A DNA stretch of 46,306 bases from an uncultured Clostridia bacterium (GTDB taxonomy: Bacteria > Bacillota > Clostridia > UBA1212 > UBA1255), in assembly GCA_947625435.1 (NCBI GenBank), contig CANQOI010000011.1, positions 1 to 46,306 on the forward strand, given 5' to 3'. Made by a program: the position numbers and the translations under genes. Of the stretch, positions 3,871 through 46,306 are shown piece by piece (the stretch's first letter is position 1; each line of letters begins with the position of its first letter). The notes under the pieces were generated by a model. The model was not told the DNA's origin, made no database searches, and was given only the letters and a program-made list of their open reading frames with translations.

Positions 3871-4854
3871 TCATTTATACTTTTTCATTCCGTTTTCAAG
3901 GACTTCTTTCACGCGAGCCCTGAGTGACTCCGGTGAAATTATCTCTACATGGTTCATGTACTGCATTGCCCAGTGTTCCATAGCATTCGGGCTTGCTTTT
4001 ATGCTGACCATGACTTTGTCCGCATCATCGGTCTTCATGATGCGAATATCAGTGCCGAACCAGTCAACGATCTGGTCGATGATACAGGCATCCGCGATAA
4101 AAACAATCTGCTTCTGCTGATCCGTGTACATGTATGGCATATTGGAAGCAAGTTCTTTATAGTTAATGCCATTCTCATATCCTTTCACTGTTTTCAGCGG
4201 AGTAGCCTTCTTATCGGTTACAGTAATATTAGTTATGTGATCCAATCGATGAAAGACCATGTTGCCCCAATACTCACTATAAGCCATGAGGTAATATCTC
4301 TGATTATGGAGTAACATCTGATATGGGCTGACATATTGTTGAGAAGTCTTGTGCAGTTTTTTGTCTGTACCGTATTTATTGTAATCATAATGGATCTGAA
4401 ACCCTTCTTCGATGGCAGTATCGATGAGCCCGATGTTATAGAACACCGCCCGATTATCGGTCTTGTTCCAATCATTTACGGAACGGATATGCCTGACGCC
4501 GGGTTTGAAATATTTGTTTGACAGCCTACAAAGACGTTCGATCAAATCAGAAGAGTATTTGGCGGTGATATGCTTACTGCATAGAACACTGTCGATCAAC
4601 AAACGAAGCTCAGAATCTTCAAAATCGCGGCTTGCCAGATAACTTCCGGCTCTACGCGACTCAATATCAATTCCGGCCTCTTTAAGCAGAGATATATTTC
4701 GACTGACAGCCTTGCGCTCGATAACAATGCCATAGTCGTTTTCAAGGTGACGTGAAATATCATCCTGTGTCATAGGGTGATTATAGTCGCTGTATTCTTT
4801 AAGGATCTGCCATATCCTTATCAGCGCCAGTTTTTTCGGTTCAAAACTATCCAT
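3871..4854 (-). CDS. WYL-domain transcriptional regulator
   Basis: The 327-residue protein has an N-terminal winged helix-turn-helix at ~8-65 (region MTQDDISRHLENDYGI through RNISLLKEAG) and a WYL domain at ~145-225, with the typical SPYQMLLHNQRYYLMAY strand pair and a following HRLDHI segment. WYL proteins sense ligands, often nucleic-acid breakdown products, and regulate transcription; many sit in defence islands (BrxR/CapW type). The ATG at 4854 is preceded by AGGAG on the minus strand. It is the first gene of a likely WYL-AAA+ transcription unit. Two copies of ATTGTTC 14 bp apart (4896-4902 and 4910-4916) in the upstream region are possible self-operators. Confidence 0.85.
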   Translation of the reverse strand: MDSFEPKKLALIRIWQILKEYSDYNHPMTQDDISRHLENDYGIVIERKAVSRNISLLKEAGIDIESRRAGSYLASRDFEDSELRLLIDSVLCSKHITAKYSSDLIERLCRLSNKYFKPGVRHIRSVNDWNKTDNRAVFYNIGLIDTAIEEGFQIHYDYNKYGTDKKLHKTSQQYVSPYQMLLHNQRYYLMAYSEYWGNMVFHRLDHITNITVTDKKATPLKTVKGYENGINYKELASNMPYMYTDQQKQIVFIADACIIDQIVDWFGTDIRIMKTDDADKVMVSIKASPNAMEHWAMQYMNHVEIISPESLRARVKEVLENGMKKYK

Positions 4855-5534: not shown

Positions 5535-8500
5535 ATGAAAGCATTACACGGTGCGGAAAAAGAGAGGATTGCAAGGCATAGACATAAAGCATCCGGGAGG
5601 CTCGGACGCAGGTCGCTTTCAATGATGCTGTGCATGTGCATGATAGTGTCCATGATGTGGAATTTCGGCGGGACGGTGCTGTCGTCCGTGGCTCAGCCGA
5701 CGGATTCTGAATATATTACAGACCGTATATCGGACCCGAATACGATGGACGATTATCTCATGCAGCTTTTGTCTATGGAGTGGGGCTCCCGGTATGCGGG
5801 CCGCATATGGACGGACAAGAGCGTGTTTGCATACGGTCAATCCGGAGTGAATTGGGACGGCAAACAGCTGCTCTTGGATATGGCCACTGACGGCTATGAC
5901 GGCAACGTGAGTTCAAGCGCGGATTTTCTCCATGTGTTTTCCACCCTCGGCTCATCGCAGGAGCTGGCAGGTGTTCCGCCCGTGCGCACTGTGATAGTGT
6001 TCGATAATTCTGCGTCGATGTATAACAGTTCAAATGTTGCCGCTTCTTCCGGAGAAAAATTATGGCAGCAGCAGAGGATTGCCATCACGATCGAGGCTAT
6101 CAACCGCGCCATCGACATCCTGATGGAAGCAAGCGTATACAACGAAGTGGCGGTCGTTCTCTTTGGCGACGGTCCGAACAACGGAGTAAACGCAGCGAAC
6201 AGCACCTATCCGTATATCGGCAACAATACGGCAGTCACTATACTTCCCATGAAGCATTATACTCCGAGTAAAACCGCAGGAACGGGTGAAGATATGTACA
6301 CGCCGTATCTCACGGGAGGTTGGGATAGTGGCGACAGAACAATATATTTTAACGGGAGCAAACCTCGTCATGAGGGTACAGGCACAGACGGCAAATCCGG
6401 CTCGATCGGCGGAGGCTGGGTATTCGTAAATAATGATCTGTGCGGGCTTAACAAAGGCGACGGTGATGGCGAAGATTGGAACGACACCGGGTTCAATGAT
6501 TGCAACGACTATGCATACACCGGCTACAAGAACGGCACCACCAACATTCAGGCAGGATATTATGTCGGAATGCAGGAATTACTCAACGCCGACAAGACGG
6601 TAAGGGTGGGTTCGGAAACATACCAGTGCGTTCCTTCCCTCGTTATGCTGACCGACGGTGCAGCCACCGACAAGCTGAGCGGCGATTTTATCACACCTGA
6701 TATCAATGAAAAAAACGGATATCCTACAAACATGGATTTTGTCAATGATACGACCAACAAACTACGCTCGTTTGTAGGGTATGACTGTGTCGGAAAAGAT
6801 AATGGAAAGGATTACAAACCGAAAGACATGCCTAACTTTTGGGATATGTTCGTCGAAATGATCGAAGAAGGAACAGATAAAGGAAAATACAAATCGGTTG
6901 TGGGAAGCGATCAATACACACCTATTACAGACGACGCTACCGCAAAACCCACCGGTGCCGGACTTGATGCCATGAAAGAGGTTGCGGATACCTATAGCGA
7001 TTCCGTGGCGTCTATGCTGCTGGGCACACTGATGACGAATGCCTACTATAAGGCGGCGGTCAGAAGAGCCTACGGTATTGCCGATGACGAAAGCTGGGAT
7101 ATTTTTTCACTTTCCGTCGATATGGTAGATATGGGTGAAGTTCCCCATGATGCAGCGATCGATGCAATGGAACCTGCCGATGAAGCTAAGAAACTTAAGA
7201 GCGAGCTGCCGTCAAAATGGGAATATAACATCACCAGCAACGCCCCGACCATGAATCCTTCGGAATTCTTTTATAAGGACGGCAAAGTCGATCTTGAATG
7301 GCTAAAGGATCGTGGCTACGTTGACAAGAACGTTGATATGGCAGAAGCAATTAAAGATCCGAGCTTAATCTTAGAGAATACCGCATACCCCGACTATTCC
7401 GTCGGTGAAATGGTCATTCAGGGCATTGTCAAAGCAGGACATTATTTGAATATGTGGGCGGATAAAAACAAAACCGATTCTTTTACGACGAAATATCAAG
7501 GTTGGCAGGAAAATACCGGAATATTCGGTAAAAGCAACTGGGCATCTGCTGCAACAAACCCATACAGTCACAGCAACGGTTATCTGCTGGAAGAGAAAAA
7601 GTCCGTTTTGTGGCCGCAGATCGACCCCGACAACGCTGAAAACGTCACCAAACAGGACGTCCTTGACAACATCGGCTATAACAGCTATTCATACTATGCT
7701 TCCACATCAGGCGGCGCGGCAGATGAGCTTGCAGGCAAATTTCAGTTGATCATAGACGCCATAACAGAGCCGTTGTTCATCCCCATTTCCGGTGAAAATG
7801 CTGCCGGCGTGGGCGATTCGATCACTTATCAGGATCCGCTCGGCGAATACATGGAGATCAAAAATCAGGCTATCGAAACAATGACACACAAGGACGAGGA
7901 CGAAGGCAGTGAAAAGCCCGGAACTTATGATATGTCCCTGCTCGTATTCGGTAAAATGCACGGCCTTGTACGCGCAGGCGTTTACGATTGGCAGTGGAAC
8001 GATAAATATATGCAGAAGCATGGTCTTAATGTAGGTACCGCAGCCTTCCCTATGGGATGGTATTACGGAGACGACCCGGAAACGGCTGTTGGCGCATCCG
8101 ATAAGGATGGTGTCGGCGTAAAAAGCGATGACTCCGGATCATATCCTGCCCATAGCTTAGACGGAAAAACAGAATACTCAAACGCCGAAGACGCTTGGGC
8201 GGACGGCTGGGTTTACCGGTTCAATTTCTCCACAGTGCTGCAATTCGTTCCCATAACGGGCGTTAATGCATCGGAAGTCCATCCTTCAGACCTTCCGGAT
8301 CAGGTAAAAAATACTGTTTACACTTGCTACCGTTTCGCGGGTTCGCAAAAGGAAAGAAATGCGCTCCACCGCAACCCTGCATTCGGCGATGTTCCCGATC
8401 AGTTGAAGAATACATGGAAAACTTACGAAGACAAAGGCAGTTATCCCGCGGATGATTCTGTTTATGCGAGCACTCCCGGTGTCTACCGTCTGTCAGATAT

Positions 8501-11500
8501 ACGCGTTTGGGTGGAGGATACCGGCGACTTTGCCGACACGACCGGCGCCATCACACCCAATCAAGGTTATGACCGTTCGCTTTATCTGAACATACCGGCA
8601 GCAGCGGTTCCCACTCAGCTTGCGACCGTTACACTGGGACAGGAAGGCGTATTGTCATACATAACCAATCTGGCCGGAGATAAGAAATATGAAAGTGCAA
8701 AAGGCTCCGAAAAAATAGACTACGGTTCCCTGTCGGAGGATGACAAAAAGCTCTATGCAGACTATTCGGCTCAGTCCACACCTTTCCGGCTGTTTTACGC
8801 CGTCGGTCTTGAGGACGATCTGATACTTTGGGAAGAGACCAAAGACAGCGACGGTAATACCGTGCGCAAGCAGATCGGCGTGGATTTCACCAAAATTTCA
8901 CCTGAATACATAACAGCGCACACTACCGAAAAAGAGAACTACGTTTGGTTCATATCAAACTACTTTTCAAACACTACATATGACGATTATGTTCAGGATT
9001 CGGCTGGAACGTCCCGCGGCGACCCGACAATAACATTCTCGCCCAACATTAAGAACAGATACTATATCTTCCAGAAACCGTTGCCGCTCTATGCTCACGC
9101 GTATCGAAATACTGACGGTGGTTTGAAGCCGGTGGACAATATCAACGACTTGTGGCGCGAATGGGCAAGCGGCACAGTAGGTAAGGGCGATTGGAATTGG
9201 AAGGAAGCTTACCCTAACGGCGCGGGCAACGGTAAAACGGCGTGGGAAGGCGGCGCGAGAGGAGGCAGCTGGTCCGGCGGCGAATACATCGGAACTTATA
9301 AGGACGGCAGCACTTTTACAAAAGCTAAGGATAATATTAAACTTGAAGCTGACGGTAAACGCTACATCACCGATGACCATGAAAACACCTATCTGTATGT
9401 CGACGACGGTATAATATTCCTTGAGGCAGACGCATTGGATCACGTCACCTCCGAACCGGGTTCGGACAATTATACCTCTGATTCCGTGTCCTTCAACTCC
9501 GAAGACTATTTCTTCATTCTTATTGAGTACTATGTACCGGATCCGGATTCAGAAGTAAAAGACGGCGACGGAAACGTGATATTCGGCGCCCACACCGGGC
9601 GCATGGTTCAGCGGGTAGTTGCCCGCCGAGGCAGTGAGTTCGGCTCGGGCTTTGTATCCGACAAAATATATAACGGCGACATGCTCTGCTGGGTATCCAT
9701 GAATAATGACATCGACGAGCAGTTTGACTATCTCTCTAAAACAGACTCCGGCGACCTCACCCGCGGCGAGCCTACGTGGCAGAAGCTGACGTTTGAGCGC
9801 GCAGCACTGGAAACCTACCTGACAGGCACCTGTAAAATCGGTGCGGATTCAACAATGCCCAATCCGGAATATGACTCGAGTAAGCCGGAAGGTCCGGACA
9901 ATCCGAAGGAAGTAAACGTTCTGCAGCATCAGCTCGAATATTGGACAAAATTGCAGGGGAGTGAGCAGATCAGAGCAGCATTGAGCGCCGCGGACGAGAA
10001 TGAGGACGGCTGCGACGAAGATGAATTCAAAAAAGCGTTTTCTTTCGTTGTGGCAACAAAACCCGGCGGCATACGCTCCGGAAACATGGCTAACAACGTA
10101 CACGCAAAAGACGACAATGTGACCCGCACCGCCCGGAACTACTATGTCCCGGTTGTATCAGCCGCCTCCGGCATCGGCAACCAGGCTATCTTAAATAACT
10201 ACATGGGCAACAACGGCTATCTTGAAATATCAAACGAGATGCTGCATGTGACTAAGATGATCGAAGCTCCCGGCGGATATAAACTGACAAAAGATCAGAA
10301 GAATGAAATATTCAATTATCAGATCTATATTCAGGGTGTTTCAGGCACGCGAAACGCCGTTATGACGCAGTACAACGAGTTTTCAAAGACATGGGACCGC
10401 CAGCTTGCATATATCGACGTTCTGACAGACAACAGTGACCTTGTGCTTGACAACAACAGCAATCGAGCGCTGTTTGTAGAGACTCAGATCGACGGAAGCG
10501 GCGGCACAAAAGTTACGACCGCAAAGCAGGTTATCGCAAACGGTACTGACGATGACGGTGAAACGATGTACTACGAGGCAAACGAGGACGGCACACTGCC
10601 ATTAGGGGATGACGGCAATGTGGATGAAGGTAAGCGTGTAACGATAACGCCTGAAAATCCTCTTTATTACCTCTATCTTCCTTCCAACGGAAACGACGCG
10701 AGCTCGCAGCACACTCGCAGACTGTACCAGAATACTGATTACGACGGTGCGGAAGACGGGTACCCAAAAGGAACGAATTTCGTAAAAAACGGCACAACAA
10801 CATTTTATTCACCCGGGCAAAGACCGGAAGGAGATACCGGCACTGCTCCCGACATGGGTAACAATGACAGCTACCGTGAGTCTACCGATCCCAAACGTCC
10901 CGCCGGCACCATCACCTATTGGGCGCAGGACGCAGAGCTGATTCCGATCACGGAAGTACAGGAAGCGGAAGCGATCGATGAAATAGTCACTGACGGCAGT
11001 GCCGCCTACGAGATTCAGGCGGAAAATTCAACGCCCGGTATGTGGACGCATGAAGTATCGGAGGGCGGTGCCGAGTGTACAAAAGAAGGACATGTTTCAC
11101 TGACATTTTTCACGCTGGTCATAAGGAGACCGTCAGGTGAAACGAGTATGACGGCGTTCGAGTCTCCCTTCAAGACCCGTTCGAAATATATGACGTTGGA
11201 ATTGAAATTCGGCATAGACCAAACCGAGGTTTACGACCGGACCGTTCCGTCTGCCGATGCAGATCCGTCGAATCCGTTTGACGGTATTACGCTTGCAGGT
11301 ATCGCGAAAAACACCGCGGAATTCACACTGACATACGGCGAAGGTCTGCTGCTGTCCGGTCTGGATAACGATATCACATACCGTTTTACGGAGAAGCTGA
11401 CGGACGGGCAATTGGCTAAAGGCTATACGCTCAAGCAGATCGATCACATAGAGGAGGCTGAAACACATAAGACCAAGCAAAAGAACGGTGTCGACAACGG

Positions 11501-12617
11501 CGTATATTCCGTATACGGTAACACAGGCTCGTTTGAGGAACAGATAAATTACATAAATACATGGGATCCGGATGCGCTCGTCGTGTCAAAGTCGCTGGAA
11601 GCCGCCGAAAATACATCCATAAACGACTACGATAAAAATGTCGGATTTAACTATACGGTCACATTCACGCTTCCCGATTGGCTGAAGGGCGAATCTCTTC
11701 CCGCTTCGGGACTCCCCTATTGGAAGGGTAAAACGGCCGATCTCAATAAGGCGGTCTCCGAGGAAAATGTCTTAAAGGGCGGCGCTCCGCGTCCGACCGA
11801 CTACGATGCCATAAACAAGCTTCCGGATAAGCTTACAGCTACGGACGGCAGCTATTCATTTACCCTAAAAGCAGACGAATCCATCGTGATCTACAGCTTG
11901 CCTTTAGGCACGACATACACTGTCACGGAAGCCGAGGATCCCGACTATCCCGTTAAGAGCGGTACAGGTACAGGTTCGGAATTATCCGGAACCATTGCAA
12001 AAAGCAGTCCGGACGCCGAAAATCACGTTGTAAACCTCGCACCGTACACCAATGTCAAATCGGCGCGTTCTCTTACGATCGAGAAAAAGATCATGGGCGA
12101 CAGCCCCGATACGAGCAAGGATTTCACGTTCGAGATAACGCTCGCGCCGCCTGACGGCAAGGAAATAACAAAAGAATCTCTCACCGTGTCGCCGGACGGT
12201 AAAACAGTCGACTGGTCTGCGGACTCTGAAACTAACGCTCTCAAAGCGACATTCACGCTGAAGCACGGCGAGAAGATCACTATAGACGGCATACCGACGG
12301 GCACGAATTACGTTGTAAAGGAGACCGGCAGGAGCGGCTACAACCTCGAGCATGTCACGACCGACCCGTATGATAAGGATGAAAAGCAGATACAGAAGCT
12401 CAATCCGGACGGGAGCATAAGCGGCACAGTAAGCAAAGAAAGCGCACAGGTATACTGGCTCTTCGTAAACGCCAAAGCGCCGACGCTTCCTTTCACGGGC
12501 AATGCAAACAAAGACACGGGTATGTGGATTATCATGGGAGCGGGCATACTGCTCATGATCGCGTCATCCGCGGTGGTATTCGCTCTCAAGAAAAGACGCG
12601 GAGCGCACGTAAAATAA
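5535..12617 (+). CDS. Giant secreted VWA-domain LPXTG surface protein (adhesin/pilus-tip-like)
   Basis: The 2360-residue protein begins with a basic stretch and a hydrophobic segment (~28-50), fitting a long signal peptide. A von Willebrand A domain follows: VIVFDNSAS supplies the MIDAS motif DxSxS (D157, S159, S161), and LVMLTDGAATD (D374) supplies the later metal-binding Asp. About 150 residues of insertion lie between them. The middle (~600-1950) is not recognised. Two FctA/Spy0128-like pilin domains, of the kind that form Lys-Asn isopeptide bonds, start near 2012 (VVSKSLEA) and 2173 (LTIEKKIMG). The end has LPFTG (2318-2322), a hydrophobic helix and a KKRRG tail, so sortase attachment to peptidoglycan is expected. 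No sortase or pilin partner is in the window. AAGGAGG precedes the ATG. Adhesion to host or matrix is inferred from family knowledge. Confidence 0.85.
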   Translation: MKALHGAEKERIARHRHKASGRLGRRSLSMMLCMCMIVSMMWNFGGTVLSSVAQPTDSEYITDRISDPNTMDDYLMQLLSMEWGSRYAGRIWTDKSVFAYGQSGVNWDGKQLLLDMATDGYDGNVSSSADFLHVFSTLGSSQELAGVPPVRTVIVFDNSASMYNSSNVAASSGEKLWQQQRIAITIEAINRAIDILMEASVYNEVAVVLFGDGPNNGVNAANSTYPYIGNNTAVTILPMKHYTPSKTAGTGEDMYTPYLTGGWDSGDRTIYFNGSKPRHEGTGTDGKSGSIGGGWVFVNNDLCGLNKGDGDGEDWNDTGFNDCNDYAYTGYKNGTTNIQAGYYVGMQELLNADKTVRVGSETYQCVPSLVMLTDGAATDKLSGDFITPDINEKNGYPTNMDFVNDTTNKLRSFVGYDCVGKDNGKDYKPKDMPNFWDMFVEMIEEGTDKGKYKSVVGSDQYTPITDDATAKPTGAGLDAMKEVADTYSDSVASMLLGTLMTNAYYKAAVRRAYGIADDESWDIFSLSVDMVDMGEVPHDAAIDAMEPADEAKKLKSELPSKWEYNITSNAPTMNPSEFFYKDGKVDLEWLKDRGYVDKNVDMAEAIKDPSLILENTAYPDYSVGEMVIQGIVKAGHYLNMWADKNKTDSFTTKYQGWQENTGIFGKSNWASAATNPYSHSNGYLLEEKKSVLWPQIDPDNAENVTKQDVLDNIGYNSYSYYASTSGGAADELAGKFQLIIDAITEPLFIPISGENAAGVGDSITYQDPLGEYMEIKNQAIETMTHKDEDEGSEKPGTYDMSLLVFGKMHGLVRAGVYDWQWNDKYMQKHGLNVGTAAFPMGWYYGDDPETAVGASDKDGVGVKSDDSGSYPAHSLDGKTEYSNAEDAWADGWVYRFNFSTVLQFVPITGVNASEVHPSDLPDQVKNTVYTCYRFAGSQKERNALHRNPAFGDVPDQLKNTWKTYEDKGSYPADDSVYASTPGVYRLSDIRVWVEDTGDFADTTGAITPNQGYDRSLYLNIPAAAVPTQLATVTLGQEGVLSYITNLAGDKKYESAKGSEKIDYGSLSEDDKKLYADYSAQSTPFRLFYAVGLEDDLILWEETKDSDGNTVRKQIGVDFTKISPEYITAHTTEKENYVWFISNYFSNTTYDDYVQDSAGTSRGDPTITFSPNIKNRYYIFQKPLPLYAHAYRNTDGGLKPVDNINDLWREWASGTVGKGDWNWKEAYPNGAGNGKTAWEGGARGGSWSGGEYIGTYKDGSTFTKAKDNIKLEADGKRYITDDHENTYLYVDDGIIFLEADALDHVTSEPGSDNYTSDSVSFNSEDYFFILIEYYVPDPDSEVKDGDGNVIFGAHTGRMVQRVVARRGSEFGSGFVSDKIYNGDMLCWVSMNNDIDEQFDYLSKTDSGDLTRGEPTWQKLTFERAALETYLTGTCKIGADSTMPNPEYDSSKPEGPDNPKEVNVLQHQLEYWTKLQGSEQIRAALSAADENEDGCDEDEFKKAFSFVVATKPGGIRSGNMANNVHAKDDNVTRTARNYYVPVVSAASGIGNQAILNNYMGNNGYLEISNEMLHVTKMIEAPGGYKLTKDQKNEIFNYQIYIQGVSGTRNAVMTQYNEFSKTWDRQLAYIDVLTDNSDLVLDNNSNRALFVETQIDGSGGTKVTTAKQVIANGTDDDGETMYYEANEDGTLPLGDDGNVDEGKRVTITPENPLYYLYLPSNGNDASSQHTRRLYQNTDYDGAEDGYPKGTNFVKNGTTTFYSPGQRPEGDTGTAPDMGNNDSYRESTDPKRPAGTITYWAQDAELIPITEVQEAEAIDEIVTDGSAAYEIQAENSTPGMWTHEVSEGGAECTKEGHVSLTFFTLVIRRPSGETSMTAFESPFKTRSKYMTLELKFGIDQTEVYDRTVPSADADPSNPFDGITLAGIAKNTAEFTLTYGEGLLLSGLDNDITYRFTEKLTDGQLAKGYTLKQIDHIEEAETHKTKQKNGVDNGVYSVYGNTGSFEEQINYINTWDPDALVVSKSLEAAENTSINDYDKNVGFNYTVTFTLPDWLKGESLPASGLPYWKGKTADLNKAVSEENVLKGGAPRPTDYDAINKLPDKLTATDGSYSFTLKADESIVIYSLPLGTTYTVTEAEDPDYPVKSGTGTGSELSGTIAKSSPDAENHVVNLAPYTNVKSARSLTIEKKIMGDSPDTSKDFTFEITLAPPDGKEITKESLTVSPDGKTVDWSADSETNALKATFTLKHGEKITIDGIPTGTNYVVKETGRSGYNLEHVTTDPYDKDEKQIQKLNPDGSISGTVSKESAQVYWLFVNAKAPTLPFTGNANKDTGMWIIMGAGILLMIASSAVVFALKKRRGAHVK

Positions 12618-12738: not shown

Positions 12739-13413
12739 TCATAAAGAGTCAGTATTTGGCAAAACAGTGCTGTTTTCAACTTTTTCTTTAACCTCTTTAA
12801 TCAGTTCATACAGGGTGCTGCATGGACACATTTCTGACGGCCTTTTTTCGTTGCCTTGTGAGTACCATTGAAATCTTTTCTCTGCAATTTGGATTGCTTG
12901 TCTTTCGTTTCCAAAACGATTAAGCATAGTATAAATCTGCGGATTATCTTTATGGTACTCCTGACCGGTTCGCTGCTCATAAGTTTCCGCAAATTTTCTG
13001 CAACATACCACAGAGTCAATATAAGAATGCATCTTGCCAAAATACGCATCAAACCATATTTCGATGCAAGGGTTAGACCAACCGACACTGACGCCCTCTC
13101 TCTTTGCCCTTGAAATGATTTCATCGAAGTTCATAACTCTATCCCTATCAAATACGATCCAAGGCTGTCCATATTGCGGTTCGAGAGCGGCCTGCTCCTT
13201 ACAGGTTTCAACCAGTTTCTGCGTTCTTGCCCTGGAAACTTTGATGATAATGCGTCCTCGCAACTCTTTAGGCAGGGAATCACGAAGGCCATATAGATAA
13301 TTTTCTTCAGTTTCTTTGGCATCGGTTACGATAAAGTAGTAACCGAGATCCGGGACTCTCGTTCTAAAGTCTTCTCTGGATTTCCTTCTCCCGGTTCTGT
13401 CTGATCTTGCCAT
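12739..13413 (-). CDS. RloB-family protein (TOPRIM-like partner of RloA)
   Basis: The 224-residue protein begins with a basic RloB-type tail (RTGRRKSREDF). It then has YYFIVTDAKETEENYLYGL (residues 25-43) and WIVFDRDR (85-92). These correspond to the two acidic motifs of RloB/TOPRIM-like folds, usually written EGxxTE and DxD. Here the first motif reads D31-A-K-E-T-E36 instead of E-G-x-x-T-E, while D89 and D91 are kept. RloB genes were named as R-linked ORFs in Campylobacter restriction loci and pair with an AAA ATPase. The ATG is 2 bp beyond the stop of the upstream ATPase gene, with GGGGGAG just before it, so the two are co-translated. A nuclease effector triggered by the ATPase is inferred. 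Confidence 0.8.
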   Translation of the reverse strand: MARSDRTGRRKSREDFRTRVPDLGYYFIVTDAKETEENYLYGLRDSLPKELRGRIIIKVSRARTQKLVETCKEQAALEPQYGQPWIVFDRDRVMNFDEIISRAKREGVSVGWSNPCIEIWFDAYFGKMHSYIDSVVCCRKFAETYEQRTGQEYHKDNPQIYTMLNRFGNERQAIQIAEKRFQWYSQGNEKRPSEMCPCSTLYELIKEVKEKVENSTVLPNTDSL

Positions 13414-13415
13414 AT

Positions 13416-14678
13416 TTACTCCCCCTTAAACATATCGAAATATTTAAGGGTAGGAATCGCCCCGTATTTTCCCAGAAGATAGTTTTTTTCGTAGCTTTCG
13501 TCTTTTCGTATCTTAGTACCGTCATTGTCGATAAAATCTGCAAGAGAGTAAAGCGATGATACTCCGGATGAATCCTTCTCTGTGAACCATATCTCGTCTC
13601 TGCGCAGCAGATTATTGGATAGCTGCCAAGAATCGTGCGTTGTAAAGACTAACTGCGCATGATTGGGATTGGTCTTCGGATTCAGAAACATGATCAAAAA
13701 GCTGCGAACAAGCAAAGGATGCAGCCGTGCATTTAATTCATCAACAAAGAGGATACTTCCTGTATTTAAAGTATCCTGTAAAGCCGGATAAAGAGCAAAC
13801 ATTTTCAATGTGCCGTCTGACTCATCCTGTAAAGGAATTGATGCCGTATCATCAGAGCCTGTTACGTGATGGAGTGCATCTATTTTTACATGTTCAACAT
13901 CATCGTCACTTTTAATCACTTCAACATTAAATCCGATAATAGACGGATCGAAGGCCGTGAAATATTCTATTACTTTCTCTTGGATATTCTTGTCATATGC
14001 AAATCCCTTCGGAATCAATGATGAAAGGAACGCATTCTCGACCGGATTACCGAAATTAGCAAAATTAACATTATAAAACCAATCTCTGATCATTTTGAGT
14101 TTGGAGATACGCTGCTTTGCACCGAGTGAAACAATGAGTGCTTCATCGTAAAGAGATACTTTTATAATGTTCTGCATTTTTTCCGGCAAGCCGGATAAGT
14201 CAAGTTCATTCCCGTTTCGGTAAAATATAGATTTGTATTCTCTTGCTGTCTTTGCTTTATAATTAAGCCATTCTTCTACGACTCCGTTTTTATTCAGCGC
14301 AAAACCGTAATTGTATGACTTGCAGCTGTTGTCCTCAGAAGTTATAAAATAGACTTCAAAAGAAGACTCTGCATCTTTGCTTGCAGCATCAAATAAAAAC
14401 GGAGTAAGTTTGGGCTTTCTTGTTTTTGATTTTTTATCGTCGATTTCTCCGCCGTATGCAAACGACTCCATTACATAAGTGGTCATATAGCGAAATGCTT
14501 CAATCACATTGGACTTCCCGCTTGCATTTGCGCCGTATATAGCCGCCGTCGGTAAAATCTTTTCAGCGCCTACTTGAATTATTCTGTCAGAATATTCCGT
14601 AATTTTGGTAGCAGATAGATCGAGAATTGTATCATCCTTGAAAGATTTGAAATTTTTAAATCTGAATTGAATGAGCAT
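13416..14678 (-). CDS. RloA-like AAA/ABC-type ATPase of defence cassette
   Basis: The 420-residue protein opens with the FKNFKSFKD motif of OLD/RecF-like ATPases, followed by Walker A GANASGKS (49-56). Late in the protein are a Walker B ILFVDELNARLHP (around residue 310) and an H-loop TTHDSWQL, so the ABC-type ATPase head is complete with an insertion of ~200 residues in between. This is the AAA_15/AbiEii-like group found in many abortive-infection systems. AGGAGG lies 8 nt before the ATG. A good minus-strand promoter lies 15-50 bp upstream, inside the cassette. The gene ends 2 bp before the RloB-like gene. A phage-sensing ATPase with RloB as effector is inferred from the family. Confidence 0.85.
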   Translation of the reverse strand: MLIQFRFKNFKSFKDDTILDLSATKITEYSDRIIQVGAEKILPTAAIYGANASGKSNVIEAFRYMTTYVMESFAYGGEIDDKKSKTRKPKLTPFLFDAASKDAESSFEVYFITSEDNSCKSYNYGFALNKNGVVEEWLNYKAKTAREYKSIFYRNGNELDLSGLPEKMQNIIKVSLYDEALIVSLGAKQRISKLKMIRDWFYNVNFANFGNPVENAFLSSLIPKGFAYDKNIQEKVIEYFTAFDPSIIGFNVEVIKSDDDVEHVKIDALHHVTGSDDTASIPLQDESDGTLKMFALYPALQDTLNTGSILFVDELNARLHPLLVRSFLIMFLNPKTNPNHAQLVFTTHDSWQLSNNLLRRDEIWFTEKDSSGVSSLYSLADFIDNDGTKIRKDESYEKNYLLGKYGAIPTLKYFDMFKGE

Positions 14679-17625: not shown

Positions 17626-19059
17626 ATGAAAGAAATGACTGTTTGTTTAACGCAGATATCTATTGAGAATTTCAAGAATGTTTCACACGGAATGCTCGAT
17701 CTGACAAACAAACGAAAAAACTATAAAGCAAACATCCTGGGCCTTTACGGACAGAACGGATCCGGAAAAACGGCGCTCATAGATGCGATACAATTGTTGA
17801 AATTCGCCTTGATGGGGAAATCGATCCCTGCGGTTTTTTCTGAGTATATCAGTATCGATGCTCCGTCAGCACGTTTCGTTTTTTGCTTTGATGTCAAAAA
17901 AGACATCGATTCATTTCAACTGAAATATGAGTTTTCAATAAAAAAAGCTTTAGATCCTTCCGCACAGAATATGAACCAAGGTGAAGAGGTTCCGGTTGCG
18001 GCAGAAAAGTTAATGGTTGAAGTTTTCGATGAGGTGCTCAGTTGTTCTTTTGCCGGAGACGGAAAGCGTGACCGTATCGGTCCTATCATAAAAACCGATA
18101 CGGACAGTGTTTTTGTTCCTGCTTCAAAGTATCAACTTCTTGTGGGTAAGGCTCAGAAAACAAAAACAGAGCTTCTGGTAGCAAAAAAATTGGCTTTGGC
18201 AACTTCAAGATCCTTTGTTTTCTCCGGAGAGTTGCTGAACGCGATACACGCAAAAAAAAGCGCTGAAGAATCCGTTGATTATAGCGTCTACGCATCTTTG
18301 ATTGAGGCGCTTGTTTATTTCGGGAACTTTGAACTTTTCGTTATCAATACAACTAATTCCGGATTGATCAGCCTGAATGCACAGCCGTTGGTGTTTAAAT
18401 ATGAGGCGGCAAACAGTAATGCCATAGGTTCATTAATGCTTCCTCTGGAACAGCCTGTTACGATTCCGAAGCAAGCCGCTGACGTTGTAAGAAAAATAAT
18501 CGGAAGTATGAACATCGTTTTGGAACAGATCGTTCCGGGATTGACGGTTTCTTTGAAAGAACTCGGCGCCCAGTTGCTTCCGGACGGGACGACCGGATTA
18601 AAAATACAATTGATGTCAAATAAAAACGGTAAAAATATCCCGTTGTGCTATGAATCCGAAGGTATAAAGAAGATCATTTCGATTCTTCAGCTTCTGATCG
18701 TCATTTATAACCGGCCGTCTATTACGGTCGCTGTCGATGAACTCGATTCCGGGGTGTTCGAGTATCTGCTCGGGGAATTACTTCGTATCATTTCCGAAAA
18801 GGGCAAAGGACAGTTGATTTTCACTTCGCACAATTTGCGTCCGCTTGAAACGCTCGATAACGGATTTATAGCGTTCACTACGACAAACCCGGCTAACAGA
18901 TATATCCGATTTACTAACGTAAAGGGAACAAACAATCTGCGCGATTTCTATTTTCGCGATATTGTTCTCGGAGAACAGAGCGAAGAAGTTTATGCCCCTA
19001 CTAACAATGCCGAGATAGCATTGGCGTTCAGAGAGGCCGGTGAGGTTCATGGCTCGTAA
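17626..19059 (+). CDS. OLD/RecF-like ATPase of a two-gene module
   Basis: The 477-residue protein opens with ISIENFKNVSHG and Walker A GQNGSGKT (42-49). Near the end it has a Walker B-like AVDELDSGVFEYLLGELL and an H-loop TSHNLRPLE. The layout is that of an ABC/SMC-type ATPase head without a fused nuclease. GGAGG lies 8 nt before the ATG and a good promoter is just upstream. The next gene begins within its last 11 bp, so the two products are probably made in fixed ratio. It is clearly different from the RloA-like ATPase at 13416-14678. Its lysines are largely AAA, unlike the metabolic genes that follow. An anti-phage ATPase role is inferred. Confidence 0.8.
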   Translation: MKEMTVCLTQISIENFKNVSHGMLDLTNKRKNYKANILGLYGQNGSGKTALIDAIQLLKFALMGKSIPAVFSEYISIDAPSARFVFCFDVKKDIDSFQLKYEFSIKKALDPSAQNMNQGEEVPVAAEKLMVEVFDEVLSCSFAGDGKRDRIGPIIKTDTDSVFVPASKYQLLVGKAQKTKTELLVAKKLALATSRSFVFSGELLNAIHAKKSAEESVDYSVYASLIEALVYFGNFELFVINTTNSGLISLNAQPLVFKYEAANSNAIGSLMLPLEQPVTIPKQAADVVRKIIGSMNIVLEQIVPGLTVSLKELGAQLLPDGTTGLKIQLMSNKNGKNIPLCYESEGIKKIISILQLLIVIYNRPSITVAVDELDSGVFEYLLGELLRIISEKGKGQLIFTSHNLRPLETLDNGFIAFTTTNPANRYIRFTNVKGTNNLRDFYFRDIVLGEQSEEVYAPTNNAEIALAFREAGEVHGS

Positions 19060-19744
19060 AAAGATAGTATTCGTCATAGTGGAAGGATCTTCCGACGATA
19101 CCGCTCTCGGAGTCATCCTTAACAGGATATTTGACAGCAACACAGTTCATATTGAGATCACTCACGGAGACGTTACTTCGGATTGGAACGACAAAAGCAC
19201 TGATATCCTGAAAAAGGTTGCAAATATTATTAAAATCTACGCGGCAAACAACCATTATCATAAGGAACACTTTAAGCAGATAATTCACTTGATCGATACA
19301 GACGGCGCATACATACCTCATTCAAATGTTATTGAGGATCATTCTGCCGTGGAAAAACCTATTTACACCGAAACTGAGATCCATACGGCTGTTCCGAAAA
19401 ATATTATAATGCGTAATGAGTTCAAGCGGGAAGCTATGGACAGGCTCGCCTGTCGCAAAAGCATCTGGGACATACCGTATCAGTGTTACTATATGTCGTG
19501 CAATTTGGATCACGCCCTGTACGGAAAACAAAACAGTTCTGACGAGGAAAAGGAAAATGATTCTTATGAGTTTGCTAAACGTTATAAAAATAACATACCC
19601 GGATTTCTGAAACTGCTGTGTGATCCTGAGATTTCCGTGCCCGGAGACTACCTCAACAGTTGGAGATTCATCCGGAAGGATCTTCATTCTTTAGAACGCC
19701 ATACAAATTTTGGCATTGCCTTTGAAGACATTTACACGGGCTGA
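19049..19744 (+). CDS. TOPRIM-like partner protein of the second ATPase
   Basis: The 231-residue protein starts MARKKIVFVIVEGSSDD, giving the first TOPRIM acidic motif E12-G13 with D16/D17, and has IHLIDTDGAY with D83-x-D85 as the second. This is the arrangement of the nuclease half of OLD proteins, here as a separate chain. The remainder (E-rich, then GFLKLLCDPE and a final short helix) is not recognised. ATG at 19049 overlaps the ATPase gene by 11 bp; GTG at 19040 is an equally possible start. It is expected to work as a metal-dependent nuclease with the ATPase. I could not assign a named family. Confidence 0.7.
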   Translation: MARKKIVFVIVEGSSDDTALGVILNRIFDSNTVHIEITHGDVTSDWNDKSTDILKKVANIIKIYAANNHYHKEHFKQIIHLIDTDGAYIPHSNVIEDHSAVEKPIYTETEIHTAVPKNIIMRNEFKREAMDRLACRKSIWDIPYQCYYMSCNLDHALYGKQNSSDEEKENDSYEFAKRYKNNIPGFLKLLCDPEISVPGDYLNSWRFIRKDLHSLERHTNFGIAFEDIYTG

Positions 19745-43995: not shown

Positions 43996-44069
43996 GCGGG
44001 TGTAGTTCAATGGTAGAACATCAGCCTTCCAAGCTGATTGTGAGGGTTCGATTCCCTTCACCCGCTCCA
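43996..44069 (+). tRNA. tRNA-Gly (anticodon TCC)
   Basis: The acceptor arms GCGGGTG and CACCCGC pair perfectly. The anticodon stem-loop CAGCC-TTCCAAG-CTG gives TCC, the T-loop is GGTTCGATTCC, the discriminator is T, and CCA is encoded. Confidence 0.96.
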
Positions 44070-44094: not shown

Positions 44095-44170
44095 GTTCCA
44101 GTAGCTCAATGGATAGAGCATCGCCCTTCTAAGGCGAGGGCTGGGGGTTCGAGCCCCTCCTGGAACGCCA
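44095..44170 (+). tRNA. tRNA-Arg (anticodon TCT)
   Basis: The acceptor arms GTTCCAG and CTGGAAC pair perfectly. The anticodon stem-loop CGCC-CTTCTAA-GGCG gives TCT, the T-loop is GGTTCGAGCCC, the discriminator is G, and CCA is encoded. It reads AGA/AGG, codons that are heavily used in the core genes here. Confidence 0.96.
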
Positions 44171-44496: not shown

Positions 44497-44536
44497 TTAT
44501 TAGGATCCATGGGACATTATTAGGATCCATGGGACA
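44497..44536. repeat. 20-bp tandem duplication
   Basis: TTATTAGGATCCATGGGACA occurs twice head to tail (44497-44516, 44517-44536) without mismatch. Confidence 0.95.
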
Positions 44537-44640
44537 TATTTCATTCGCTGCACTCGGCACCTCGCCGAAACTTTTCCCTCTTTGAATTGTAAATTCTTTT
44601 AATATCTCTTGCAATTCTGAACAGAATATGACGTAATTAC

Positions 44641-44665
44641 TTCGTAAAATACGAACTAATATAAT
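44641..44665 (+). promoter_or_regulatory. Promoter with operator-like dyad for the third ATPase/TOPRIM-like pair
   Basis: TATAAT at 44660-44665 is a perfect -10 box with no good -35. TTCGTA-AAA-TACGAA (44641-44655) is a perfect dyad ending 4 bp before it, in the -35/spacer position, as expected for a repressor or activator site. Confidence 0.6.
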
Positions 44666-44686
44666 ACAAACATTCGGAGGTGCGCG

Positions 44687-45787
44687 ATGATTGTTTTGAA
44701 TCTAAAACTGAACAATATATACGGCTTCTCAAATTTCAGTATTGATTTCTCCTATCCGAAGAAGATTGTCAATTCGCTGATCGAGGATGAGTATTTGGAG
44801 GGAAGGCCGAATTTCAGATACAAGAAAGCGGTTATCCTGATGGGAGCAAACGCTACCGGAAAGACAAGTCTCGGAAAAGCGCTGCTAAGCATCGTGAATT
44901 ATTTTAACAGCGGTGATCCTACTGTGCTGAATGCTTTGGCACTGTCTGACAGCGAAGCGTCTTTTCAGATTGATTTTGTAAACGACGGCTTTACTCTCCA
45001 CCGAGTTGGCGTCAGGCTTAAGGAAACGGAAAACGGCAATAAATCATTTGTGTCCTATTCCTATGCGGAAATAATGCCAAAGGATTCATATGAAATGTGC
45101 TGCGAAAAATTGACGCCTTTTGAGTCGAAAGACGAGACACAGATATACAACAAAATCGGCAAGATAAATTATACTTTCTCCTGCCCTGACATCAAGCCTA
45201 CGGCAAAAGTGGCAAAAATAAAAAAGTCTGTCGCGCTAAAAACTTTGAGAGCAGTAATCGGAACGCTCGACCCGACGCTGACCGACGTAAGTATTTCAAA
45301 GGATCTGAGGAACTCGTTTATCATTCGCGGAAACAAAGAGGAAATCATCATACAGGACGGAAAACTGCTTGGTAGGGATTCGCTGTCCAGCGGAACCGCC
45401 GAGGGCGTTGATATCGCCTTTTTCCTTGCGCTGCTTATGTCGGAGCGAAACGGATTCTACTATTGTGACGAGCATTTTTCCTATATCCAAAGCGATATAG
45501 AAAAAAGGATATTCGGATTAATGCTTGAACATTTGGGACGTTCGGGTCAGCTTATCTTTACAACGCATAACACCGATATGCTTGGCCTCAATCTGCCGAA
45601 ACATTGCTTTGCGTTCCTCAGAAAGAAAGAGGAAGACGGCTATAATGTCTGTGTGACATATGCCTCGGATATTCTGAAAAGGAATACCGATTCGATTCGG
45701 TGCGCGGTAGAAAACGACGTTTTCTCATCTCTGTCAGATGAATCGCTCCTTGACGAACTTGAAATGAGGTGCGACGATGAAGAATAA
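44687..45787 (+). CDS. OLD/RecF-like ATPase of the third two-gene module
   Basis: The 366-residue protein has LKLNNIYGFSNFSIDF at the start, Walker A GANATGKT (53-60), a signature-like LSSGTAEGVDIAF, a Walker B-like FYYCDEHFSYI and an H-loop FTTHNTDML. It is the shortest of the three such ATPases in the window and is not close in sequence to the other two. GGAGG is 6 nt before the ATG. The partner gene starts within its last 11 bp. Its base composition and codon use (AAA and ATT more frequent) are unlike ileS next door, which fits acquisition. A defence role is inferred from architecture. Confidence 0.8.
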   Translation: MIVLNLKLNNIYGFSNFSIDFSYPKKIVNSLIEDEYLEGRPNFRYKKAVILMGANATGKTSLGKALLSIVNYFNSGDPTVLNALALSDSEASFQIDFVNDGFTLHRVGVRLKETENGNKSFVSYSYAEIMPKDSYEMCCEKLTPFESKDETQIYNKIGKINYTFSCPDIKPTAKVAKIKKSVALKTLRAVIGTLDPTLTDVSISKDLRNSFIIRGNKEEIIIQDGKLLGRDSLSSGTAEGVDIAFFLALLMSERNGFYYCDEHFSYIQSDIEKRIFGLMLEHLGRSGQLIFTTHNTDMLGLNLPKHCFAFLRKKEEDGYNVCVTYASDILKRNTDSIRCAVENDVFSSLSDESLLDELEMRCDDEE

Positions 45788-46247
45788 TTGCATCTATTTT
45801 GCCGAGGGAAAATGTGAGGAACGGTTACTCGCCGCGCTGAAGGAGAATCCTCAGAAAATACAGTCGGGGCGTGTTAAAGTTTTCAATGTAGTTCAAAAGC
45901 TGCTCCCTAAATCTCAGCTTGTCACGATCCAAACCGGCACGACGGTTGTTCTTATATTCGATACGGATGTGCAGAATACGGAATTTTTGCGCGAGAATAC
46001 CAGTCGTTTGAGGACGCTTTGTTCAAAAGTCAGATTGGTATTTTTGCCGCAAGTGTTGAATTTGGAAGATGAGCTTGTCAGGTGCAGTGGAATCAAAAGC
46101 GTGATTGAGCTGACGCACAGCAAAAGCAATAAAGACTTTAAGAGAGATTTTTGCTCGATAACGAATGTTTGCTCAGTTTTAGACAGGGTAAATTTGGACG
46201 TCAGCGCGCTTTGGCGGAGGGATCTGGGCGGTGATCCTGATTTTTGA
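45777..46247 (+). CDS. Small TOPRIM-like partner protein of the third ATPase
   Basis: The 156-residue protein starts with YFAEGKCEERLL, giving E10-G11 and E14/E15. It then has VVLIFDTDV with D62-x-D64, the two acidic motifs of a minimal TOPRIM-like domain. A further acidic element, LNLEDELVRC, follows. The C-terminus ends LWRRDLGGDPDF. It overlaps the ATPase gene by 11 bp and so is made with it. It resembles a reduced RloB/OLD nuclease half. No named family can be assigned. The module appears complete, since the frame closes 59 bp before the window end. Confidence 0.7.
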   Translation: MKNNCIYFAEGKCEERLLAALKENPQKIQSGRVKVFNVVQKLLPKSQLVTIQTGTTVVLIFDTDVQNTEFLRENTSRLRTLCSKVRLVFLPQVLNLEDELVRCSGIKSVIELTHSKSNKDFKRDFCSITNVCSVLDRVNLDVSALWRRDLGGDPDF

Positions 46248-46306
46248 TTTGCATGCGGCAGATTTTTTCTGTATACTTATTCTGTTACCGCAACGTTCTT
46301 TCGCGC

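Follow-up and report, generated by a model that had tools for sequence, protein, structure and literature searches.

The combination of an ATPase with a TOPRIM protein is already known from PARIS and AbiL. In PARIS, a proposed 'Class 4' OLD system, an OLD-type ABC ATPase and a TOPRIM nuclease are encoded by separate genes, with the ATPase gene first (PMC12409363, PMC10568477); AriA keeps AriB inactive, and a phage trigger releases AriB to cut tRNA (PMC12409363). AbiL (AbiLi/AbiLii) and RloA/RloB combine an AAA_21-type ATPase with a small OLD-TOPRIM-related protein, and AAA:TOPRIM_OLD pairs behave as antitoxin and toxin in E. coli, where the ATPase neutralises toxicity (PMC10440598). Here we describe a family of the same design that is probably a travelling anti-phage or toxin-antitoxin (TA) module controlling its own expression. 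What is new is a palindrome upstream of the ATPase gene.

The window analysed here is the whole of contig C11 (46,306 nucleotides) from a draft host genome of 2.03 Mb in 86 contigs, and it ends 59 bp past the stop codon of the small gene. The original prediction described a 366-residue ATPase overlapping a 156-residue protein; both open reading frames are present, with an overlap of 11 bp (Table 1). This pair is real and not a product of chance, because genome contigs alone hold 21 homologous loci and comparison with the nearest relative gives dN/dS values of 0.07 for the ATPase and 0.11 for the first 146 residues of the small protein, both indicating purifying selection. Elsewhere in the window, positions 5535-12617 encode a protein of 2360 aa, probably a surface protein, that carries DUF7601 and DUF5979 domains at its C-terminal end.

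Table 1. Features of the ATPase/TOPRIM locus, in window coordinates.
Feature	Position	Strand	Description or basis
tRNA-Gly	43996-44069		upstream of the pair
tRNA-Arg	44095-44170		upstream of the pair
Predicted promoter	44609..44637	+	-35 TTGCAA 44609-44614, 17-bp spacer, -10 CGTAAT 44632-44637
Palindromic operator (predicted)	44636..44660	+	ATTACTTCGTAAAATACGAACTAAT; consensus ATTAnTTC-N9-GAAnTAAT, 0 mismatches
Ribosome-binding site	44676..44680	+	GGAGG; sequence
ABC-type (SMC/OLD-like) ATPase	44687..45787	+	366 aa; AAA_21, PADLOC AbiLi, phrog_5836, AF2
TOPRIM-fold protein	45777..46247	+	156 aa; invariant E10, E14, D62, D64, E97, E99, K122
Aberrant 3' end of TOPRIM gene	46215..46247	+	DNA match to the closest relative (L002) ends at 46214; protein alignment
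77-bp contig-end sequence	46230..46306	.	common with the end of contig C67

The ATPase has a complete set of motifs: Walker A GANATGKT (residues 53-60), signature LSSGT (233-237), Walker B FYYCDE (257-262) and H-loop TTHN (292-295). It matches the Pfam AAA_21 family above cut-off (1.3e-6) and falls in the phage protein family phrog_5836 (2.5e-42, PHROG), and its AF2 model (pLDDT 80.7) has Rad50/SMC heads and PtuA as its nearest folds.

The small protein, P0002, had been credited with EGKCEE and DTD motifs only. Both are present, but two more invariant blocks, QVLNLEDEL (92-100) and FKRDF (121-125), bring the number of conserved motifs to at least four. An unproblematic alignment of 18 homologues underlies this comparison, and with distant relatives added ten positions remain invariant (E10, G11, E14, D62, D64, N74, Q92, E97, E99 and K122). 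A TOPRIM alpha/beta core of the OLD type has a conserved Glu behind its first strand and a DxD behind a later one; here E10-G11-x-x-E14 and D62-T/S-D64 are unchanged in 15 diverse members, and E10/E14, D62/D64, E97-x-E99 and K122 are invariant across 22-83% identity. Their order matches the two-metal site of the Burkholderia pseudomallei (Bp) OLD protein, where E400/E404, D455/D457, T506-x-E508 and K562 coordinate two Mg ions or assist catalysis (PMC6755086). Bp OLD has an acidic residue (E508) in the first helix of its helical domain and a catalytic lysine (K562); E97 and E99 (helix 96-102) and K122 (helix 118-127) may, by their order, be the counterparts.

Structure prediction agrees with this assignment. 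The AF2 model of the small protein, built from the 18-sequence alignment, reached a pLDDT of 86.5 and a pTM of 0.81. When VIA-align was run on Foldseek candidates, the top chains were C-terminal domains of OLD proteins from X. campestris (Z 6.8, 137 aligned) and B. pseudomallei (Z 6.1), with 137-138 residues aligned for these two leaders; GajA (Z 5.9) came next, then topoisomerase I, DnaG and Thermus OLD. Z values of 6-7 are moderate, and the ranking is the stronger argument for a TOPRIM fold, since most of the leading rows are TOPRIM proteins. Foldseek alone gave no significant match for the model among PDB and viral models (E > 0.01), and a PDB sequence search with the TOPRIM profile returned nothing relevant. 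One distant member scored 9e-4 against OLD-like_TOPRIM (PF20469), just below cut-off, whereas P0002 itself had no match above cut-off in PADLOC or Pfam and belongs to phrog_10204 (6.8e-16, PHROG). The model thus supports the prediction that the small protein is TOPRIM-like, and it is probably a metal-dependent nuclease.

Its small size, which had suggested a minimal TOPRIM partner, turned out to be that of a truncated copy. Other family members have 166-177 residues, and the window protein diverges from them after Trp146-147 (46214), losing ~20 C-terminal residues; in their place, its last ~10 codons read RRDLGGDPDF, which bears no relation to other members. The closest relative (L002) has 85% DNA similarity to the window pair, and this homology stops abruptly at 46214. 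The sequence from 46230 matches the end of contig C67 exactly, contains a strong promoter sequence (TTGCAT-17-TATACT) and may possibly be an rRNA operon leader, although no 16S gene was found in the host genome bin or genus bins. A contig end of this kind is a typical assembly break at a repeat. At the register usual for the family, the -10 box of the window is weaker than the TATAAT of its relatives; for the window itself, the promoter scan preferred a different hexamer. Because the C-terminal tail is lost and the -10 box is weaker, the window copy may be impaired. It could even be a decaying, non-working remnant whose TOPRIM gene was cut by recombination beside the repeated element, a possibility we take seriously while leaning against it. 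The replaced tail, the CGTAAT box and a contig that stops within a repeated 77-mer fit such decay, but purifying selection acts on an ATPase that is entirely intact and on a TOPRIM protein that keeps every putative catalytic residue, conservation of the TOPRIM protein is lowest in the very tail that was lost, and the assembly end could misrepresent the junction.

Among known systems, PARIS shares with the window family the order of an ATPase gene and a separate TOPRIM gene, as well as carriage by prophages (PMC12409363, PMC10568477). The two differ in their small proteins, as no match to DUF4435 (Pfam) or the AriB model (PADLOC) was found for P0002 or its relatives at permissive thresholds. 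The ATPase gave only weak, generic AriA matches, the window family falls in its own phage protein families, and for its promoter palindrome we found no PARIS counterpart in the open-licence literature. Chains of AriA and AriB were absent among the structural matches listed for either protein's model, which excludes nothing. OLD and GajA provide the best structural matches of the TOPRIM model and have the same order of acidic residues and lysine, but the window family has a shorter helical domain and, unlike the fused OLD proteins of class 1/2 or Gabija, consists of two genes at every locus; no UvrD-like GajB partner was recognised among the neighbouring genes read. NetFlax AAA(D29)-TOPRIM_OLD(D44, D60) pairs, tested in E. 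coli as antitoxin and toxin (PMC10440598), have the same two-gene layout of ATPase and TOPRIM, but the D44 node is RloB-like.

AbiL/RloAB also has the same gene order. That the pair is an outlying subtype of AbiL/RloAB or PARIS, and not a separate family, is rather unlikely. In PADLOC the family's ATPases match AbiLi best (2e-22 to 2e-27), and in distant members AbiLii matches the TOPRIM protein weakly (2.8e-5). The value for the window ATPase (2.2e-22) is, however, far below the 1e-90 of P0003, the ATPase of a true RloAB pair in the same window, and may reflect nothing beyond shared AAA_21 ancestry. P0002 gave no match to RloB (PF13707) and no relative scanned reached the cut-off (best 1.2e-3), compared with 9.2e-33 for P0004 of that RloAB pair. 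The family's small proteins are also shorter (166-177 aa), and their third motif reads Q..N[LF]E[DE]E, as opposed to NPC.EIW in the RloB protein. With no AriB/DUF4435 match, no RloB match above cut-off and PHROG families of its own, we file the family outside PARIS and AbiL/RloAB; by the sequence markers tested it appears to be a variant of the known ATPase and TOPRIM design that is neither of the two. The two proteins of the pair, together with distant relatives from phages, make part of phrog_5836 and phrog_10204, to which PHROG assigns no pairing, fold or regulation.

The original prediction counted three unrelated pairs of one design in the window. Pair 1 (12739-14678) is the RloAB/AbiL system just mentioned and hence of a known type, and pair 2 (17626-19744) consists of an AAA_21 ATPase and a 234-aa partner with VEGSSDD and LIDTDG motifs, which falls in no family of Pfam or NCBIfam and matches PADLOC models only weakly (mad4, HEC-01B). 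When hhalign compared the TOPRIM profile with the partner proteins of the other two pairs, using single sequences on one side, no usable similarity emerged; to that extent the pairs do look unrelated. The proposal that this genome collects split OLD-like systems gains modest support from a fourth pair, an RloAB on contig C3 (6922-8644) whose RloB has 31% identity to that of the window, and from the absence of all three pairs from the related genomes searched. A search of 57 relatives of the host did not find the pair studied here, and one of 37 relatives found neither of the other pairs' small proteins, which leaves no co-occurrence to interpret; a pattern scan of viral contigs for relatives of P0004 and P0006 confirmed none.

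To the extent that the family has been sampled, its two genes stay together. We surveyed genome contigs, a class sample of 391 genomes, viral contigs and phage records, and found both genes in ~24 close loci and 19 distant loci (28-33% ATPase identity), with carriers that include gut bacteria and extend from Clostridia through Acinetobacter to prophages of E. coli. In all of these sets every intact small gene lies directly behind an ATPase gene. Homologues outside any ATPase pairing, named with the original prediction as evidence against it, came down to two broken copies (L019 and L054), and a third candidate orphan is cut by a contig end (L021). Across 21 loci the identities of the two proteins co-vary (Mantel r 0.967, P 0.001). 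Within the class sample the pair occurs in 7 of 391 genomes, host included. Given this and its absence from the 57 relatives, the pair is a sporadic accessory module. Few loci lie within obvious multi-gene defence islands.

The position next to tRNA genes, which the original prediction had pointed out, looks incidental. Both tRNA genes lie ~500-700 bp upstream of the pair, but ARAGORN found no tRNA at 28 of 30 homologous loci. A tRNA gene as integration site was considered and rejected, as the window has no duplicated tRNA end and most homologues have no tRNA nearby. Nor does the pair read as a transposon, since terminal inverted repeats are absent at its ends. Between the tRNA genes and the pair, the window carries a perfect 20-bp tandem duplication (TTATTAGGATCCATGGGACA, 44497-44536). 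In a prophage of E. coli strain EC24 (L107), genes for tRNA-Ile, tRNA-Arg and tRNA-Arg (7046-7295) follow the pair 1.7 kb further downstream. As tRNAs of phages are known to counter tRNA-cutting defences, this proximity may deserve attention.

Homologues of the pair are carried by phages and prophages. In phage NatCom_17901 (L049) the pair lies between the portal and large-terminase genes, at two further loci (L020 and L048) it adjoins terminase genes, and in Acinetobacter phage Ab105-3phi it lies between a lysis-type gene and the integrase; it is also found on an Acinetobacter plasmid. In E. coli prophages it sits between DUF1133 and a DNA methyltransferase gene, annotated only as 'ATPase AAA' (WP_001547733) and 'hypothetical protein' (WP_021538475, the TOPRIM homologue), and both PHROG families are annotated as 'unknown function'. 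A terminator-ended cassette of 1.7 kb, comprising the operator and both genes, is 96-98% identical among Pseudoflavonifractor, Oribacterium parvum and O. sinus, with unrelated flanks in Pseudoflavonifractor and the two Oribacterium species. At another locus (L014), a 70-bp direct repeat (97%) flanks the pair at 4759-4828 and 6524-6593. The copy on the upstream side forms the 3' end of the gene before the pair, a layout that would arise if insertion of the pair had duplicated that gene end; L016 has a repeat of similar kind but older. In Pseudoflavonifractor and Roseburia, the gene of another AAA_21 protein (2.8e-14; L005, 3597-4748) lies directly upstream of the pair, within an element with two integrase-like genes.

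The palindrome is found directly upstream of the ATPase gene at nearly all loci. Nearly all close homologues have 0-2 mismatches to the consensus, compared with ~5 in shuffled sequence, although the palindrome is weak or reduced to its core at some loci (L020, L104 and L105). In the 2.03-Mb host genome, the window palindrome is the sole site at ≤1 mismatch, and in two other genomes (G125 and G372) exact sites occur solely at the pair's promoter among the matches listed. Distant homologues (28-33% ATPase identity) retain a TTC-N9-GAA core at the same place. In Gram-negative relatives it takes the form TTCC-N7-GGAA, with the same spacing, just upstream of the start codon in 11 of 11 distinct sequences, several of which are close to each other. 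Phage NatCom_17901 carries two operator-like sites, since another palindrome of this type (TTTTCGTAAAAAGCGAAAATAATAT) lies ~100 bp ahead of its ATPase gene. At 15 homologous loci in Firmicutes, the -10 box of the best promoter ends exactly at palindrome position 2. Given this overlap, any protein bound to the palindrome would obstruct the promoter, and transcription should begin within the palindrome.

The palindrome could also act as an RNA hairpin at the 5' end of the mRNA, for translational control or as an anticodon-arm-like decoy for the nuclease, but we consider this distinctly improbable. The core TTCG/TTCC-N7-CGAA/GGAA would form a short stem with a 7-nt loop, the pair 9/17 covaries (GC, CG, AU and UA), and in Gram-negative relatives the palindrome covers the ribosome-binding site. 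However, symmetric change of half-sites is equally expected of an operator for a dimer, most stems are weak (-1.4 to -4.5 kcal/mol), and a transcript starting inside the palindrome, as the overlapping -10 box in Firmicutes implies, is difficult to reconcile with a hairpin. Moreover, position 5/21 forms no standard pair in 20 of 29 sites and the half-sites are nearly invariant, and for this reason the sequences look more like a DNA operator to which a dimeric protein binds than like a hairpin.

With an operator-like, operon-specific site at its own promoter, the pair resembles an autoregulated TA-like operon, and most likely it represses that promoter. Across phyla the site moves together with the pair, and no regulator gene was seen moving with them; one of the two proteins is therefore the most likely repressor. 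More specifically, and tentatively, since we place this slightly on the doubtful side, the pair's own complex may be the sequence-specific DNA-binding repressor of its promoter throughout a phage-borne family that extends from Clostridia to Proteobacteria. We found no relevant report of autoregulation or palindromes in ATPase-TOPRIM systems in the open-licence literature.

Taken together, we favour, with some but far from full confidence, a horizontally moving two-gene immunity or TA-like module in which an ATPase gates a TOPRIM nuclease and the promoter is self-repressed. The near-obligate pairing, the co-divergence, the conserved putative catalytic residues, carriage on phages, horizontal transfer and a palindrome that accompanies the pair are observed. 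From these we infer that the small protein is a nuclease acting on some nucleic acid, that the ATPase inhibits it, that the pair defends against phages and that it represses itself, and we propose an ATPase-gated two-metal nuclease because of the analogy with PARIS and AAA:TOPRIM_OLD TA pairs. The ATPase, acting as both sensor and inhibitor, would bind the small TOPRIM nuclease and keep it inactive until it was freed by a trigger associated with phage or because the ATPase had been lost. The freed nuclease would then cut nucleic acid with two metal ions, and growth would stop; its substrate might be tRNA, as for AriB of PARIS, or DNA, as for OLD and GajA. One or both proteins would bind the promoter palindrome and repress transcription, which would keep a potentially toxic nuclease low on entry into a new host. 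The same cassette could instead be a plain addiction module that stabilises prophages or mobile DNA, with the ATPase as antitoxin and no phage sensing. Its terminator-ended 1.7-kb form, apparent autoregulation and horizontal spread are compatible with that role, as is the neutralisation of toxicity by the ATPases of AAA:TOPRIM_OLD pairs in E. coli (PMC10440598). Yet relatives of the same design (PARIS, AbiL and Gabija) are anti-phage systems and a cargo position in prophages is typical of interference genes, and we judge plain addiction unlikely.

The ATPase-gated, self-repressed module that we favour suggests a likely function for phrog_5836 and phrog_10204, two families of phage proteins annotated without one, and gives PARIS and AbiL a further relative that is both compact and widespread. 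The common palindrome suggests that such pairs regulate themselves and also offers a DNA signature for locating intact members. If the pair's own complex is indeed the repressor, nuclease control and transcriptional autoregulation would be joined in one ATPase-TOPRIM pair, and the same act of DNA binding could link sensing to release of the nuclease.
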